Shown piece after piece: positions 1,505-9,291 of a DNA stretch of 9,291 nucleotides. The notes under the pieces were generated by a model. It was given only the letters and a program-made list of their open reading frames with translations, was not told the DNA's origin and made no database searches. The stretch covers positions 1 through 9,291 of the forward strand of contig JACCXN010000028.1 of the NCBI GenBank assembly GCA_013696965.1, given 5' to 3'. Both the position numbers and the translations under genes were made by a program. Within the stretch, counting starts at the first letter, position 1, and each line of letters starts with the position of its first letter. Source of the stretch: Bacteroidota bacterium. Its GTDB lineage: Bacteria; Bacteroidota; Bacteroidia; JACCXN01.

Positions 1505-2100
1505 ATAGCAGAAATTTGGGGTGGAGAAATGGCTCTTTTTATTTTGTTTGTGTTGGCTAGTGTGATAGGCAAAATAAAATGTGCCATTTTGGGATGGGGA
1601 ACTTCATTTTTTTGTGTGGGAGGAAAAAGTTTTAGCATGAAGGGAGGGGCTGCTTCAAGTGTTGTAAGTTTGCACAAAAGGTGCTGAATGCTGCTAGCCA
1701 AAACAAATTTGTGCTGTTCAGTCATCCGTAAAAAAAGGCTTTCAGTTAACGTTTTTTGCATATACGCTGGTGGCGATTATTGCACCGAACCAAAAACCGT
1801 GAGCAGCAAAGTTAATAGAAATTAAAGGCTTTGCAATAGAGCACCAAGCCCGCCACTGGCGGATATGCAATGTTATGCGATGGCATTTCCCACTTCCATA
1901 GAAAGTCACGATTAGTTGCGAACAGCAGTGTAACGCCCATGAATAGTGCCAGGGGCTCCGTGTGTTTGGGTGTTTTAATTTTTTAAAGAGGGAGGGGGAG
2001 AAAAAAAAATTGAAATCCTGCGTAGGAAAAATGGAAGCTTATTTATAATTTTTGGTTTGCGCGATTGGTTTTAGAGGGAATTATGAATGTGCTTATATGT
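1505..2100 (+). repeat. Dispersed repeat, full copy B
   Basis: This non-coding unit of about 600 bp has three parts. The left flank (1505-1750) aligns loosely with 8912-9169 in copy C. The core (1756-1870) is 93% identical to copy C (9175-9289) with no gaps. The right flank (1945-2100) aligns with copy A (127-270). Both flanks hold a T-run, a G-rich stretch and an A-run (1607-1628 and 1979-2009). The left flank also holds a perfect 10-bp stem (1537-1546 with 1570-1579) and a longer inverted repeat (1547-1560 with 1694-1707, 13 of 14 paired). There is no transposase and no clear target-site duplication. An 88-codon minus-strand frame lies inside the left flank, but the matching region of copy C has a stop and mostly non-synonymous differences, so I do not call it a gene. 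Copy B separates the small-gene pair from the T9SS pair. Confidence 0.8.
1756..1870 (+). other. Conserved palindromic core of repeat copy B (structured RNA or folded DNA site)
   Basis: Arms TTGCATATACGCTGGTGGCG (1756-1775) and CGCCACTGGCGGATATGCAA (1851-1870) can pair over 20 positions, as 17 Watson-Crick, two G-U and one mismatch on the plus strand. The 75-base interior is almost invariant between copies. It contains the inner stem GCAAAG/CTTTGC (1806-1811 with 1829-1834) and a competing TATTGC/GCAATA pairing (1778-1783 with 1833-1838). Just outside are AGTTAAC (1744-1750) and GTTATGC (1872-1878). It could be a structured transcript or a recombination site of attC-like architecture. Confidence 0.6.
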
Positions 2101-2168
2101 GCGAAAGGGTAAAGTAATGACTTTCTTGCTTTGTACTGATATCGGCAGATAGGAGCATTCTGGAATAG

Positions 2169-2278
2169 GCTTACATTGGTATCAAATGGGTTTGTCATAG
2201 GTTTCGTATGCCTTTATAATGGCTTTATCATTCTTTAGCCAAGCCTTAGCCATACCTTCGTGATACCTTTTTCATATT
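2169..2278 (+). repeat. Tandem array of ten degenerate 11-bp units
   Basis: Ten consecutive 11-base units without gaps start at 2169, 2180, 2191, 2202, 2213, 2224, 2235, 2246, 2257 and 2268. Most approximate TTTRTCATRCC; examples are TTTGTCATAGG, TTTATAATGGC, TTAGCCATACC and TTCGTGATACC. The outer units are the most decayed. The array lies in non-coding DNA between repeat copy B and the 3' end of the beta-propeller gene. A period of 11 cannot keep a reading frame without stops and is close to one DNA helical turn. The remaining bases in 2101-2374 show nothing I can name. Confidence 0.7.
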
Positions 2279-2374
2279 AGGCAAAGCTTCAGAAATAAAA
2301 ATAGGTTATTTCTTGTTTTTTATAATTGAAAATTAGGTTTAAAAATTTTCGCCTTTCCACATAACATTTAACTT

Positions 2375-4147
2375 TTACTTACTGACAATCAGCTTTCTCA
2401 CAAACAGCTCCCTATCGATTAACAGTTCCACAAAATAAACCCCATGTGCATTTTTGCCTAAATCAATTTGTTTTTGAAAAGTACCTGTGTGATTTTGTTC
2501 TATAGTTTCGAAAATGACTGCACCAGTTAAGTTTCTTACTATAATATTTGCCATACCTGGTTGGGCTGAGTGATAATGTATGGTAAAGCTACTTTGAGTG
2601 GGGTTAGGGTAAATATTTAGGTCATTCCTTTTACTTCCAGAATTGATTTGATTTGTTGTGTCATAATCCTTAATTTTGACAATAAAGGCATTTGCATAAT
2701 AATCCGTTTCCAAAAGAATGTTTCCAAAACCTGTTTTCCCGGTAAACATCCCCGTTAGATAACAGTTATTTTCTTCGTCATTAATCAAGGACATGGCACT
2801 CGGTTCAGAATATACATCATTATATGTGTGGGTACTGGTAAGCCATATAAGATCACCCTTATTATTTAACTTTGCCACAAAGATATTAGCCGTATTTTCA
2901 GGCCCTTCACGGGTAAATATTTTATTTCCTATTTCAATAGTATCATGAAAAGTTCCCCCGATAAAAATATTACTATTTTTATCTAAGCTTATCCCTCCTA
3001 CTATGTTTGCATGGCCTCTTATTCTTTTTATATTTTTAACCCATTCTAAACTACCATCAGATCTATATTTAGCCACAAAAGGATTAGCAAAATTTGCGGT
3101 TCGATTGGGTCCAGAATAATATATATTACTGCCATATAAAGTTACCGCATTTCCTCCTCGCCCAAATGTGGCAGTAGTGTCATAACTTCCGGTTATGTAA
3201 ACATTTCCATCAGAATCTGAAGTGATTTCTCCTACGGCATCCGATATTACCCCGCCCGCTTTTTCCGCCCAAAGAAAATTTCCTTCCAAATCGTAACTTC
3301 CTAAAAAAATATCGGTACTTGGACTTCCCCAAGGGGCTGTAATAGATGCAAGAGTAGCCGTATCTGGTGCTGTGCCAAATAATATCTTACCTATAATGAA
3401 GCCTGAGATAAATATTTGATTTCCGCTAATACTTAGTTTGGAGCAATTAATAGAATTAATATTTCCATCATTTACTGCTTTAAACAACCGCAGCCATTTT
3501 AAATTCCCGTCTTTGTCATATTTGGCAAGAATTCCATTGGTTTGAGGAAAGTAATCCCCGTACAGTATAGTATCTCCGATTATGATTTCTTTTGTATATT
3601 GACCTAATACAAATATATTTCCTTCAGAATCAGTTTTTACATTTTTAAGACCTTGAGAATGCACACCTTTAATGTGTCTTGCCCAGATAAAATTACCGGC
3701 TGTGTCGTACCTGGCTAAAAACCCATCCCAGTTTTCCTGAAATTGTAAAGTATCGCTGTTGTTTCCGGAACCAAAAAACACAGATCCGCTGAAAGTGCCC
3801 GTAACATACAAGCTTCCAGTTCTATTGTCTATGCATATTCCTTCAATCCCTTTACCTTGCCTTATAGCCCATTTTAGATTACCCAATTTATCAATTTTAA
3901 TAATAAAATTTTCCATTGTATGTCTTCCAGGTGCAGGAGTCGCGGCAATAAGCATTTTATCATTAATACTTATTGTGTCCAAATAATAACCTGCGACATA
4001 AATATTTCCAGCCTCATCCTTGTCCATAAATTCTCCGAAAGCCCTTCCAAACTTTACACCTTTTCCCTCAATTGCCCATTCGAACGTTTGTCCATGGATA
4101 TTAAGATGAAAAAGCAAACAAAATAAAAAAATTATTCTCATTTCCAT
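2375..4147 (-). CDS. T9SS-exported seven-bladed beta-propeller protein (SBBP-type repeats)
   Basis: This 590-residue protein is secreted or cell-surface. The N-terminal signal peptide (about 1-20) ends in IHGQ. Seven strand motifs of the form GN[I/V][Y/F]V.G recur at residues 47, 111, 176, 242, 314, 392 and 460. They alternate with [F]xxKYDxxGNLxWxR-type motifs (81, 143, 206, 281, 357 and 423). The first FEWAIEGKG (22-30) and last FIVKI (488-492) look like the two halves of a ring-closing blade. This matches the SBBP (seven-bladed beta-propeller) repeat family. A Ser/Asn-rich linker leads to a T9SS type A sorting domain (about 510-590) that begins NIYPNPTQ and ends VRKLIVSK. I see no catalytic residues; a binding or scaffold role is the usual guess. 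An in-frame ATG at 4141 is an equally good start. It is divergent from the large plus-strand T9SS gene, sharing a 185-bp intergenic region. Confidence 0.92.
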   Translation of the reverse strand: MEMRIIFLFCLLFHLNIHGQTFEWAIEGKGVKFGRAFGEFMDKDEAGNIYVAGYYLDTISINDKMLIAATPAPGRHTMENFIIKIDKLGNLKWAIRQGKGIEGICIDNRTGSLYVTGTFSGSVFFGSGNNSDTLQFQENWDGFLARYDTAGNFIWARHIKGVHSQGLKNVKTDSEGNIFVLGQYTKEIIIGDTILYGDYFPQTNGILAKYDKDGNLKWLRLFKAVNDGNINSINCSKLSISGNQIFISGFIIGKILFGTAPDTATLASITAPWGSPSTDIFLGSYDLEGNFLWAEKAGGVISDAVGEITSDSDGNVYITGSYDTTATFGRGGNAVTLYGSNIYYSGPNRTANFANPFVAKYRSDGSLEWVKNIKRIRGHANIVGGISLDKNSNIFIGGTFHDTIEIGNKIFTREGPENTANIFVAKLNNKGDLIWLTSTHTYNDVYSEPSAMSLINDEENNCYLTGMFTGKTGFGNILLETDYYANAFIVKIKDYDTTNQINSGSKRNDLNIYPNPTQSSFTIHYHSAQPGMANIIVRNLTGAVIFETIEQNHTGTFQKQIDLGKNAHGVYFVELLIDRELFVRKLIVSK

Positions 4148-4220
4148 ATTTACTTCTAGTAAGAAAATTTATGCCATCTTAAAAAAGGTTATTAAAAGCA
4201 GATGTTTAATAAGATTTTAC

Positions 4221-4265
4221 TTTTCTGGGGAAAATAAAATGAATATAACGGGAATTTTGTTTCCC
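4221..4265. promoter_or_regulatory. Two small inverted repeats in the divergent intergenic region
   Basis: TTTTC/GAAAA (4221-4225 with 4230-4234) and GGGAA/TTCCC (4250-4254 with 4261-4265) are perfect 5-bp inverted repeats between the two divergent T9SS genes. They sit just upstream of the candidate plus-strand promoter, where an operator could act on either gene. Such short palindromes occur by chance in AT-rich DNA, so this is a weak call. Confidence 0.2.
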
Positions 4266-4270
4266 AAAAA

Positions 4271-4302
4271 TTTGGTAATTATAAAATTCATGTTTAACAT
4301 TG
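4271..4302 (+). promoter_or_regulatory. Candidate Bacteroidota promoter of the large T9SS gene
   Basis: TTTG at 4271-4274 is followed after 20 bases by TAACATTG at 4295-4302. This fits the Bacteroidota TTG/TAnnTTTG (-33/-7) layout with one mismatch in the -7 box. Transcription would begin near 4309, giving a leader of about 24 bases before the ATG at 4333, a location that also supports that ATG as the natural start. Confidence 0.45.
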
Positions 4303-4332
4303 AATTAATATATTATCAAAAAAGCAATTCAT

Positions 4333-7300
4333 ATGAAAAAAAAAACTACTTTGTGTTTTAGCTATTTTATTGTTAATCACCAATATCACAATTGGGCAAC
4401 AGCCTCCTGTTTTTTTTGGAATTAATGCGTGGATGCCAAAATATGTAGGAACTCAAGATGTAGGTGGGAAGTTGGATGGGCTATGGGGAACTGTTTCGCA
4501 ATCTTCACCTGCATATATTAGAATAGGTGGTATTGACTTTGATAATTTAAATCCGGCTGTAGTAACAGGATATAGAAAAAATTTAACCGACATGATTGGA
4601 CAGATAAGAGCTAAAATGCCGAATGTCATAATAATCGTGCAAATACCTGTGAATAATGAAGTATATACTCCTGCTCAGGCGGCTTCCTTAGTAACATTTC
4701 TGAATCAGACAGAGGGCTTGAATATTATCAATTTTTCTATTGGAAATGAACCCTCAAGCGAATATAATACAGCTGGAGTAGATTATACTGCTGCTGAAAT
4801 TGTAAACTATTTTTCACTTTTTTCTATAGCAATTCGCGATGCTCAGGAATTAATAAATACTACTCCCTTAACAATATGGGGTCCTGATTTGAATGAAAAT
4901 GATTATTCTTATGGACCTAAATGGGTATTGCGGGATCTTTTAGGTGGAGATCCATATTCCTCCATTAATGATATTTGTCTTATGCGTGATAATAAAAATC
5001 GCTATATTTTAGATGTTTTAGCTTTTCATACATATCCATACGGGCCCAGTTATACACGAAATGATGTAATAAGTTATCCTGGCGGTAATTTTTCAACTCA
5101 ATTACAGCCTATAATTACTCTTGTAAATGCTGCCAATCAATCTCGTGGTGCCAACCCTTTAAAAATTGCAGTGACTGAATTTAATGTTAATTGGGCAAGT
5201 AATATTCATACTCAAGTTAATCCGGCAATAGATGGAGTAGGTTCTTCTTCTTTTATAGCTGGCCAATTTTGGGCAGATATGTTTTCCAATGGCCTCAAAA
5301 ATTCAATAATGGCAATGATGCCTTGGTCAGTTCATGAAAGTGGAGGAGATTCAGATAATGGAGATAAGGGATATTTAGGCAATCCAAATGGAGAAATTCG
5401 CAAATCCACCTACTGGCACTTCAAACTCCTTGCTGATCATTTCAAATCAGGCACCAATTATACTGCAAATTACGCTCCTGGCACTGTTAATGGTATGCCC
5501 AATTTAAAAGCCTTTGGTTGTTATTTTACGGGAAATTCAACAATTGCAAATCAAAAATATATTATGCTGCTCAATCAAGATGAATCTGCAACCCGTGCAT
5601 ATACCATTCATACCAATAGCAGCTCTGGTAACATCAACTTTTCGATGCCGGGCACCAACAAAATTATAACAGGCGATATTCCTGCAAGAACCACTTTTCT
5701 AATAATGATAGACTGTGATGGAAATGAAAGTGGTCGGTGGATCTATAAGGAAACCGATAATCTTGCAAATCAATCTCCTCAATGGATTGAAGTTTCAAAT
5801 GATAAGCATTTTACGGTAAGTTTTGATCCCCCATTATATCCCAGTTTGAATTTATCCCCCTGTATAACTGTAACGGCTTCTACAACTACCTCCAATACAG
5901 TTTATTCTTATATAGCTACTCCTCCTGGCATGACACCAGGTACTAATAATAACGAATTTACTTTGTGTTCCACGAATACTGAAATTCAACATTTTATTAT
6001 AGCTACAAATAATAATGGATGTAAAGTTGTTGAAGGCGTTACAACTGACCAGGGCATTGCCGTTGGAGGTTGTGGACCTGAAATCACAGGATCAAATGCT
6101 ACTTGTTCAGGTAATTATCTAAATGGAACAGCTTCAATTACTAATTGTTATAATTGCACTGCTATTGAATGGAACACAGGTAGTACATTATATACTTTAA
6201 ATAATTTATCACCCGGAACATATACTGCAGTGGTAACAAACATTTCCGCACTAAGTGGACAGCCCTGTACAGATACTTACACGGTAACTTTAAATCCGGA
6301 TTTTATTCAGCAAAAGAAAATTACAGGTAATGCATATTGGAATAACTCAGGAAAGGTAGCAGGTATAGTTGAAATAGAAAACGGAGGCAAATTATATATC
6401 AATTCTCCATTGCTTGAAGTTGCTTCTAATACAAAGTTTATTGTAAAAAGTGGCGGGGAAATGATTGTTAATGCATCAACCATTCAGGCTATGAGCAATT
6501 GTTTTTCTGGAAATTGGCAAGGTATAGAAGTAAAGCCCGGTGGAAGATTAATTTTAAATGACGGTGCTCAAATAAAAATAAAGGGAAATGGAAAAATACT
6601 TATTGAAGCAACAACTGCATCTGTAGGCCATTTAAATTATAATCAGGGTGCCATAATTAATCTTACTGATGCTGCAAGCACTTTGGAACTACAAGGCGTA
6701 CTTAATATTGGTGCAAATGCAGTATTTACATTTTCAGGCAACGGATTTATTAAATTCAATAAACCTTCAGCGCCTTTTGATAATGTTCAGGCTGCTTCCG
6801 GGAGTTCAATAAATATTACAAAGAGCAGTGATACCCAAAAAGTCATTGAGGTTACTCAGGGCCATTTAGTGCTTCCGGCAAATCTTACCCTATTTAGATT
6901 AAACTTGTGCAAAGTTGAACTTGGATCTTATTCTTATATAATGCCAATTGGAACTAACACAGAGATTGAACTAAGAAGAACACGGATAGCAAGTAATATT
7001 GGTACAGCAAACAGTAATCATAACGGTTTCAGCCTTAATGGACAAAGCAAGGTTTATATTTGGGGAAGCATATTTGAAAATGGCAATTATGGACTTCGTT
7101 CATTGTCTGTTCATGGGAATTCAAATATTACTATTATCTCAAGTACATTTAGAAACTGTTATATTGCTGGTTTGTATACAACTGGAAGCGGAGTGATAAT
7201 GACAGATGTTACCTTTAAAAACAATGAAACTGGGTGGTTTGCCCAGGGGATGAAATCACCTTCCGTTCTTGGAAGTGTAACAATGGGAGGATCAGTCGCT

Positions 7301-8893
7301 AATGCCAATTATGACGGTATTAATTATCATGGGGGCAGCAATGCGACTTTAACTCTCAATAGTTCAAATATTTCAAATAATTTGATTGGAGGCATATACG
7401 TCTCTGGCGCAAATATTAAGATAAGATGCAGCTCCATAAAAAACAATGCATATGAAGGTATATTTATGGATAATAACTCTACCCTCACAATGAGCAGCGA
7501 CCATGAAACAGGTTATAATGACCTAAGAGGAAATGGTTTTGATGCTGCCTATGGTAATGGAGATAAGATTAATATTAGATTCAAAAATGCGAAAAATTTC
7601 CTTGTAAATAATGGATATAATAATTTATCAACGGGTACTAATGTGCATTATAAATGTGCAAGTACAGATAATGTTTGTGATCCATCTATTGATGGAACAC
7701 TTAGAATAGATTATAATAACTGTGGCAATAATAACTGTTCAGACATACATATTCAAGCTAATAATAACAGATGGATTTCAGATCAAATTACATTCCCTGC
7801 ACTACCCAGATACAAAAAAGAATATAAATTAACCACAAGCTATAATTGTTATCATAATCAATACTCGCAAGGTCAGACAAGAAAAATCCTACTCAAAGAT
7901 GATTATCCTCAAAACAATCAGAGTTGCCCTTCAAGTGGAGGCGGAGGAGTAATAGTAATAGATAATCCTTTATTCTTTTGCCCATCCTGTATTGTGATTA
8001 ACACGCCTTCTTTTAATAATAAAAAAATAAATTTAGCTGTAAGGGAAATAATTGAGAAAGTAGTACCTGACCAAACGGGTTCTCAAAATACAAATAGGAT
8101 TGCTGTGCAAAATTTCCATGAAATATTTAAATATCTAAAAGATAATGAACCTGCAATAAACAATAAAGATGCTTATTTAATTAAACTATCCTATCAATAT
8201 ATGCTGGAAGCCCTTGGGAATGCATATATAAATAATGAACTTCAGGAAGTTTCTTTAAATTCAAATATGCCTGATGAAGTCTTGAAGGTATTGGATACTC
8301 AGAATTATATTTTAGACTATTCCGATTGTTTTACACCGGCCTTATATGAAGATAAGAAGATTTCTTTGGGGTTAGATAAAGGACAGGTTTTAAGACTTGC
8401 AGGAAAACGTAATCTGGCATTAAATGAATTTAATAATATACTTTCAGGTGCAACATTGTCTGATAAAGAAACTATAGAATCCTGGATTTGTTTAACTGAA
8501 AAAGAATTAAGTTTACAAAATGAGCTTATTGACATACATGAATTTACATCTGAAATTGAAAGCTGTCCAAAAACAAGAAAAAGAAATTCCACTTCTTCAA
8601 ATAGATTTGTGCAGGAATTAGAACTGAAGGAAAATGAACATAAACATAAAGATTTTAATTTTAAATTATATCCGAATCCTGCAAGCAATGCTGTTAAGGT
8701 TCAGTTACCGGGAACAGATACTTATTCAGAACTGATTATTTATAATTCGTTAGGAATACAGGTAAAAACAATTCAATTAAATACAGAACAAGAACTATTT
8801 ATTGATTGTACACATTTTGCAACAGGCATTTATCAATTTGTTTTAAAATCAGGAAATAGCGTTTTAGTTGAACGACTTGTTATTAGTAAATAA
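4333..8893 (+). CDS. Giant T9SS-exported protein: glycoside-hydrolase-like barrel plus parallel beta-helix, frameshifted in its signal peptide
   Basis: Residue numbers count from the TTG at 4370, from which 1,507 residues are open. Residues 10-360 look like a clan GH-A glycoside hydrolase (beta/alpha)8 barrel. RIGG is at 51-54, a probable acid/base Glu127 in GNEP, AFHTYP at 218-223, and a probable nucleophile Glu270 in TEF. A beta-sandwich follows to about 447. The GH family (39, 51 or 79-like) and substrate are not determinable. Then come Ig-like and SprB-like domains (about 480-642), a right-handed parallel beta-helix with many short Gly/Asn turns (about 643-1130), a Gly-rich linker (1190), a helical, TPR-like region (about 1215-1420), and a T9SS type A sorting domain (1431-1507; KLYPNPAS to ERLVISK). 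No signal peptide is encoded after 4370. Upstream, in the same frame, KKKLLCVLAILLLITNITIG would be an excellent one, but its ATG at 4333 is one base out of frame because of ten As at 4336-4345. I therefore place the start at 4333 with a frame disruption. Confidence 0.88.
4336..4345 (+). repeat. A10 homopolymer at the signal-peptide frameshift
   Basis: Ten consecutive A residues directly follow the ATG at 4333. With ten As the ATG frame ends at a TAA after about 30 codons. With nine As (or twelve) it joins the 1,507-residue frame and makes a complete signal peptide. The run is therefore a potential on/off switch by replication or polymerase slippage, or a sequence-length error. Confidence 0.85.
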
Positions 8894-8911
8894 CAAAACT
8901 AACAGAAGAAA

Positions 8912-9291
8912 AATTGCAGGAACTTTGGGTGAGAGGAAATAGCTCTTTGACTTTTGCCAAGGTGTGTTGGCTTTTGGGATGTGGCAAAAGGCAATGTGCT
9001 ATTGTGCGGCTGGGGATTTCAATTTTTTTTTTGCGGGTGGGGAAAAATTAAAGCACGAAGCGTAAGGCTGCTCTGAACCTTGAAGATTGCAGAAAAGGTG
9101 CTCAATGAAAAAGACAAAAAAGGCTCGCGTTCCTTTCTGTCATTGCGTTACAGAATGCTATTGCATAACGTTATTTGCATATACGCAGGTGGCGATTATT
9201 GCACCGAACCAAAAACCGCGGGCAGCAAAGTTAATAGAAATTAAAGGCTTTGCAATAGAGTACCTAGACCGCCACTTGAGGATATGCAATG
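8912..9291 (+). repeat. Dispersed repeat, copy C (cut off by window end)
   Basis: The unit starts 18 bases after the stop of the large T9SS gene. Its left flank (8912-9169) aligns loosely with 1505-1750: shared blocks include GCTCTTT, GTGTTGGC, a T-run/G-rich/A-run block (9023-9047) and AAAGGTGCT. The core (9175-9289) differs from copy B at 8 of 115 positions with no gaps. It has the same orientation as copy B, at a distance of 7,419 bp. The right flank would lie beyond the window. No coding frame is conserved with copy B. A perfect 9-bp stem, CTTTTGCCA/TGGCAAAAG (8951-8959 with 8982-8990), lies 57 bases after the gene; it lacks a following T-run, so I do not call it a terminator. Confidence 0.78.
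9175..9289 (+). other. Conserved palindromic core of repeat copy C
   Basis: Arms TTGCATATACGCAGGTGGCG (9175-9194) and CGCCACTTGAGGATATGCAA (9270-9289) pair over 20 positions, as 17 Watson-Crick, one G-U and two mismatches. Relative to copy B, a U-G pair at arm position 13 has become A-U, changed on both sides. Upstream lies GCATAAC (9163-9169), the exact complement of the GTTATGC seen after the copy B core. The inner GCAAAG/CTTTGC stem is unchanged. Confidence 0.6.

Follow-up and report, generated by a model that had tools for sequence, protein, structure and literature searches.

The window, by which we mean the whole 9,291-nucleotide stretch of DNA analysed here, is one complete contig and part of an integron-like cassette array. 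Its largest gene begins with a start codon that a run of ten adenines places out of frame with a signal peptide and 1,500 codons of otherwise clean reading frame. On balance, we prefer to read this as an ordinary length slip of the poly-A tract in a weakly constrained gene, and rank that reading above an assembly error, evolved phase variation, slippage-buffered expression and initiation at a downstream TTG. The cassette itself, we estimate with about even confidence from sequence comparisons, would belong to a widespread and under-recognized integron-like system of Bacteroidia, with mobile cassettes bounded by 140-nt hairpins and moved by a recombinase devoid of the IntI-specific domain, some of them carrying large secreted-enzyme genes that poly-A slips may turn off and on again.

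Results and discussion

A poly-A tract separates the start codon from the signal peptide

Direct reading of the sequence bears out the off-frame anatomy described in an earlier, sequence-only reading of this DNA: the ATG at 4333-4335 is followed by ten As at 4336-4345 (Table 1). The product of the ATG frame is MKKKTTLCFSYFIVNHQYHNWATASCFFWN*, 30 aa in length. The long frame lies in the adjacent register, in which a TGA (4334-4336) overlaps the ATG and is followed by KKKLLCVLAILLLITNITIG-QQPPVFFGINAWMP... until the stop at 8893; hence, the N-terminal Sec signal expected of a cargo of the type IX secretion system (T9SS) is present in the long frame and the ATG is out of frame with it. Tracts of nine or 12 As join the ATG to the long frame, whereas those of ten or 11 do not (A11 yields MKKKNYFVF*), so that, as had been proposed, the length of the run alone separates the ‘on’ from the ‘off’ state. 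The locus thus possesses a 5′ coding repeat whose length sets the frame, one of the marks of phase-variable loci, and, at the frame junction, a run of at least nine As or Ts (here A10), as in programmed transcriptional slippage.

TAnnTTTG is the promoter consensus of the Bacteroidota type. A candidate promoter with one mismatch to it would place the start of transcription approximately 25 nt upstream of the ATG. In the long frame, no conventional start precedes the TTG at 4370; initiation there gives a 1,507-aa product that has lost the N-terminal half of its signal peptide and, in agreement with the earlier claim, lacks a proper Sec signal. Translation from this codon into a cytoplasmic protein, for which its place as the first conventional in-frame start speaks, is highly improbable: it would truncate the signal peptide of a protein with a T9SS tail, and homologues that do use TTG retain the signal peptide whole.

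Table 1. Features of the window and recombinases found beside related arrays. Unprefixed positions are those of the window; G000 is the genome from which the window derives.
Feature	Position	Strand	Basis or remark
attC-like hairpin site 1, core AAC 1748 ... GTT 1874	1741..1885		174.6 bits (covariance model)
Single 7.3-kb integron-like cassette, start GTTATGC, end GCATAAC (reverse complement)	1872..9169		End comparison
590-aa beta-propeller-repeat (SBBP) T9SS protein, same cassette, divergent, signal peptide in frame	2375..4147	-	ORF and profile matches
Putative promoter of the Bacteroidota type, TTTG - N20 - TAACATTG, differing from TAnnTTTG at one position	4271..4302	+	Read from sequence
Presumed native start codon ATG, not in frame with the long ORF	4333..4335	+	Homologue starts at corresponding position
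30-codon out-of-frame reading from ATG, stop TAA 4423-4425	4333..4425	+	Translation
A10 tract	4336..4345	+	A9/A12 join ATG to long frame; A10/A11 do not
Signal peptide KKKLLCVLAILLLITNITIG, long frame	4337..4396	+	Translation; aligned with in-frame signal peptides of homologues
1,507-codon ORF from TTG, as gene callers would predict it	4370..8893	+	ORF listing
Glycoside hydrolase clan GH-A-like domain (predicted)	4406..5746	+	32-row alignment, AlphaFold2 model, Foldseek
Candidate acid/base E, motif NEP	4748-4750	+	Invariant in 32-row alignment
Candidate nucleophile E	5177-5179	+	Invariant in 32-row alignment
Type IX secretion C-terminal sorting domain	8666..8884	+	PF18962 3.5e-9; TIGR04183 6.4e-8
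attC-like hairpin site 2, truncated at the end of the contig; core from AAC 9167	9160..9291		148.6 bits (covariance model)
646-aa tyrosine recombinase	L215:11214-13154 = G000 C44:131213-133153		~1.5 kb from core at C44 end
Other array-side recombinases	G097 C35:25082-25897; G031 C6:92674-93465; G081 C7:27335-28147; G036 C2:1943240-1943899		Same two-stretch match

The gene most likely encodes a secreted glycoside hydrolase

Structure prediction makes it most likely that this T9SS-tailed product is a secreted glycoside hydrolase of the GH-A type, probably acting on polysaccharides. Both PF18962 and TIGR04183 recognize the C-terminal sorting domain above their cut-offs, confirming that the gene encodes a T9SS-tailed secreted protein, as first suspected; Pfam and NCBIfam recognize nothing else in the protein, and a sequence search of the PDB gave no match. 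The N-terminal 480 residues have relatives across many Bacteroidota metagenome-assembled genomes (approximately 28%–38% identity), and a 32-row alignment shows no variation at N137, E138, P139 and E281. An AlphaFold2 model built from the 32 sequences (pLDDT 77.7) replaced a poor, earlier one built from four (pLDDT 55), and its best Foldseek matches were to GH44/GH51/GH79, with a probability of 1.00 at an identity of only 11%–15%. The predicted TIM-barrel, with its Asn-Glu acid/base and second Glu, corresponds to clan GH-A and makes the enzymatic nature proposed for the protein probable, at the level of a predicted activity.

The out-of-frame start is private to this gene

The signal peptide and the residues that follow it (xxFFGxNAWMP) align with homologues in which both are in frame, a correspondence beyond chance. 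Among the 38 homologous loci of the genome collections, all 36 with complete starts have an in-frame signal peptide, two of them by way of TTG. L008, from a genome of the same family, and L009 also start in frame with a full signal peptide. The same holds for the signal peptide of a paralogue on contig C38 of the same genome. Two loci considered as additional frame-broken homologues (L169 and L183) were rejected, given that each has an in-frame TTG start and a full signal peptide. A runs do occur near some homologue starts and leave the frame unbroken. The comparison with homologues turned up the A10 tract in none of the 36 starts read, nor any other long A tract that sets the frame, and the frame junction is not conserved in relatives. 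On this alignment evidence, the frame-shifted start is peculiar to the window gene, and the tract is not a conserved device.

Two further sequences of the same genome were considered. The start of a T9SS-like gene on contig C53 can be aligned to that of the window gene, a gap of one base falling at the tract; it was rejected as a copy of the gene, as the start region alone matches and belongs to a different T9SS-like gene. A paralogue on array contig C36 (L208:2423-5801) contains one frameshift, which leaves ORFs of 311 and 824 aa overlapping at 3327-3358, and has a large divergent neighbour similar in size to that in the window. The break does not lie at a long homopolymer and was therefore rejected as support for a poly-A mechanism.

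Poly-A runs across the genome and the case for a phase switch

We altered by one base, in silico, each run of at least ten As on either strand of the 3.86-Mb genome. Among the 63 distinct runs, only the window tract, when shortened by one A, turned a short frame into a long ATG-started one, and a genome-wide search of the same runs for a set of poly-A switches found none. In at least 16 other genes, A/T10-11 runs leave the frame intact. The combination of ATG with A9 occurs 20 times, against two occurrences for the reversed control, and stands at real, in-frame starts of about seven genes; the window tract is therefore a normal MKKK start one slip away. ATG followed by A10 occurs three times and opens a long gene in the window only: of the other two occurrences, one lies upstream of an opposite-strand gene and the other opens no long frame.

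The sequence-only reading had envisaged an evolved, phase-variable (contingency) locus, at which changes in tract length would switch production of the surface enzyme within the population. The 5′ position of the tract, the dependence of the on and off states on run length alone and the surface or secreted nature of the product all fit this idea, and poly-A phase variation is known from the wbeL/manA genes of Vibrio cholerae O1, where A-tract indels likewise turn off a surface trait through frameshifting (PMC3441752). There, however, every O1 strain has retained the tract and ‘on’ alleles are common (PMC3441752), whereas here the tract is private and in the ‘off’ state. Given that the homologues do not have the tract, that the genome contains no second gene of such arrangement and that A10 is unexceptional among 63 runs of this length or longer, one of which breaks an ATG-started long frame, a dedicated switch is not borne out, and we regard it as decidedly unlikely.

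Assembly error and transcriptional slippage

If the cells carried A9, the gene would be intact and the tenth A an error of assembly or consensus. A run of ten As is a hard context, the genome is a metagenome-type assembly and the remainder of the gene is clean. However, seven pairs of contig ends overlap by exactly 127 identical nt, which is probably the mark of a de Bruijn assembly of short reads with k=127, and this makes a miscalled A10 less likely, consensus indels in such a tract being uncommon in short-read assemblies of this kind. As a general effect, systematic homopolymer error can be rejected on the strength of these overlaps and of the 16 or more genes that remain intact with A/T10-11 runs; as an explanation of the window tract, an error is unlikely, though it deserves some weight, as does a mixture of strains at this site.

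Transcriptional slippage as the normal mode of expression, whereby A10 in the DNA would yield a fixed share of A9 or A12 mRNAs and the gene would be buffered rather than off, appears slightly less probable than even the dedicated switch. There are precedents: mRNAs of the A11-containing tssM1 gene of Citrobacter rodentium carry from 10 to 15 As, with about 20% restoration of the frame (PMC4256274), and in some cases in insect endosymbionts, reading frames are corrected in 12%–50% of transcripts (PMC5009743). As in tssM1, a run of at least ten As shifts the full-length frame of the window gene, and slippage could restore it. By contrast, tssM1 needs +1, the favoured direction (PMC4256274), whereas the window gene needs -1 or +2, with +1 leaving it off as well. 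In a genome-wide survey, slippage on A runs added single bases in most cases and seldom removed one (PMC5574713), and rescue would thus be expected to be smaller than in tssM1, because the favoured single insertions do not restore this frame. The lack of conservation of the tract also speaks against such a mode.

An ordinary slip in a weakly constrained gene

The preferred reading, an ordinary poly-A slip, would proceed as follows. The functional and presumably ancestral allele would begin with ATG-A9 (MKKK...). Replication slippage would have lengthened the tract by one base in the sequenced genome, such that the DNA of the cells would contain A10, the ATG frame would end after 30 codons and most of the mRNA would make no exported protein. 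With 1,500 clean codons remaining, the slip is probably a recent one, and the same kind of event could revert it. Loss would be tolerated in a gene that is one of a redundant family, some members of which reside in the integron-like array, and slipped transcripts (A9 or A12) may still give rise to some full-length protein. The frame anatomy, the uniqueness of the tract in the genome, the intact relatives and the cassette context are direct observations.

The frame-broken paralogue on contig C36 is a second such member of the family and fits relaxed selection; that the array holds two disrupted genes from a single family agrees better with weak selection on individual cassettes than with a dedicated switch. 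Two counterpoints should be weighed against the slip: a long clean frame is expected also of a selected gene expressed via slippage, and the ancestry of A9 is deduced from genome collections without a same-genus relative. A close parallel is offered by the inlA alleles of Listeria monocytogenes (Orsi et al., 2010; PMC2831843), in which a one-base change in a short 5′ A run of a surface protein gene reversibly leads to a very short peptide, the change from A6 to A7 occurring at ~5.5e-7 per cell. Unlike in the present case of one genome with A10 directly after the ATG, A6/A7 in inlA is a population polymorphism with measured rates (PMC2831843).

The gene resides in an integron-like cassette

The window contains a 146-nt direct repeat (1727-1872 and 9146-9291), and a repeat of ~560 bp around the sites recurs at 47 places in the genome, often on small contigs. 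With a covariance model built on the core, 49 attC-like sites were identified in this genome. The core forms one long imperfect hairpin, with two-sided compensated changes in 12 of its 23 pairs. Between consecutive sites, the first bases to follow one core (GTTnnnn...) are reverse-complementary to those immediately preceding the next: perfect runs average 8.4 bp across 17 cassettes of this genome (4.8 when cassette ends are mispaired) and 8.7 across 41 cassettes of other genomes (4.3 when mispaired), with none of 20,000 permutations reaching the observed score in either set. This complementarity is the attC R''/R' rule of integrons; the arrays thus combine folded sites of the attC type with cassette starts complementary to cassette ends. 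Judged by eye, most cassette genes of this genome encode secreted proteins or lipoproteins, and a few are likely toxin–antitoxin genes. For instance, the C15 cassette (L107:1144-1779) carries two adjacent small genes resembling, again by eye, a HigB/HigA-type toxin–antitoxin pair.

Array recombinases and spread in Bacteroidia

The covariance model detected attC-like sites in 37 of the 99 Bacteroidia genomes searched, including the genome of the window. Tyrosine recombinases adjoin the arrays in this genome and in G097, G031, G081 and G036 (Table 1). The recombinase on contig C44 carries an N-terminal extension of ~360 aa and scores 223.6 bits against the integron-integrase model TIGR02249, below the cut-off of 265, matching it in two stretches that flank model positions 178-239; positions about 180-238 are unmatched in all array-side matches, and none of the 18 array-bearing genomes yielded a TIGR02249 match over the cut-off. 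The unmatched block probably corresponds to the IntI-specific additional domain, which would accordingly be missing from these recombinases. Between the C44 recombinase and the first site lies a gene, on the minus strand, for a 239-aa protein with the C-terminal (domain IV) helix-turn-helix of DnaA (L215:13536-14255 = G000 C44:133535-134254), possibly a regulator. In G097, some cassettes of C35:3000-22999 (L231) resemble restriction–modification or other defence genes, namely, a DNA cytosine methyltransferase, a DUF1016-like nuclease, a DUF262-like protein and a macrodomain protein, all named by eye.

The arrays share with sedentary chromosomal integrons (IntI/attC) the ~140-nt hairpin sites, the complementarity of cassette starts, the tyrosine recombinase beside the arrays and the predominance of one gene direction. 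They differ from these integrons in that the recombinase has no match to the IntI-specific segment (about positions 180-238 of TIGR02249) and remains below the cut-off in every array genome tested, and in that the window cassette measures 7.3 kb and comprises two divergent large genes. Complete integrons are reported to be very rare in this group, those in Bacteroidetes coming from one RefSeq genome, that of Salinibacter ruber (PMC9024848), and we found no earlier description of such a system in the literature searched, which mostly did not extend to subscription journals. IntegronFinder requires the IntI-specific additional domain (PMC9668308), and standard IntI-based integron searches would probably miss the arrays.

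Concluding remarks

By itself, the A10 tract is one more case of 5′ poly-A tracts as weak points in AT-rich genes, and gene callers will mis-start such genes, here at TTG 4370, with the loss of the signal peptide. The cassette context matters more than the tract: should the system prove real and active, Bacteroidia would have a common route of cassette shuffling that is invisible to IntI-based searches.
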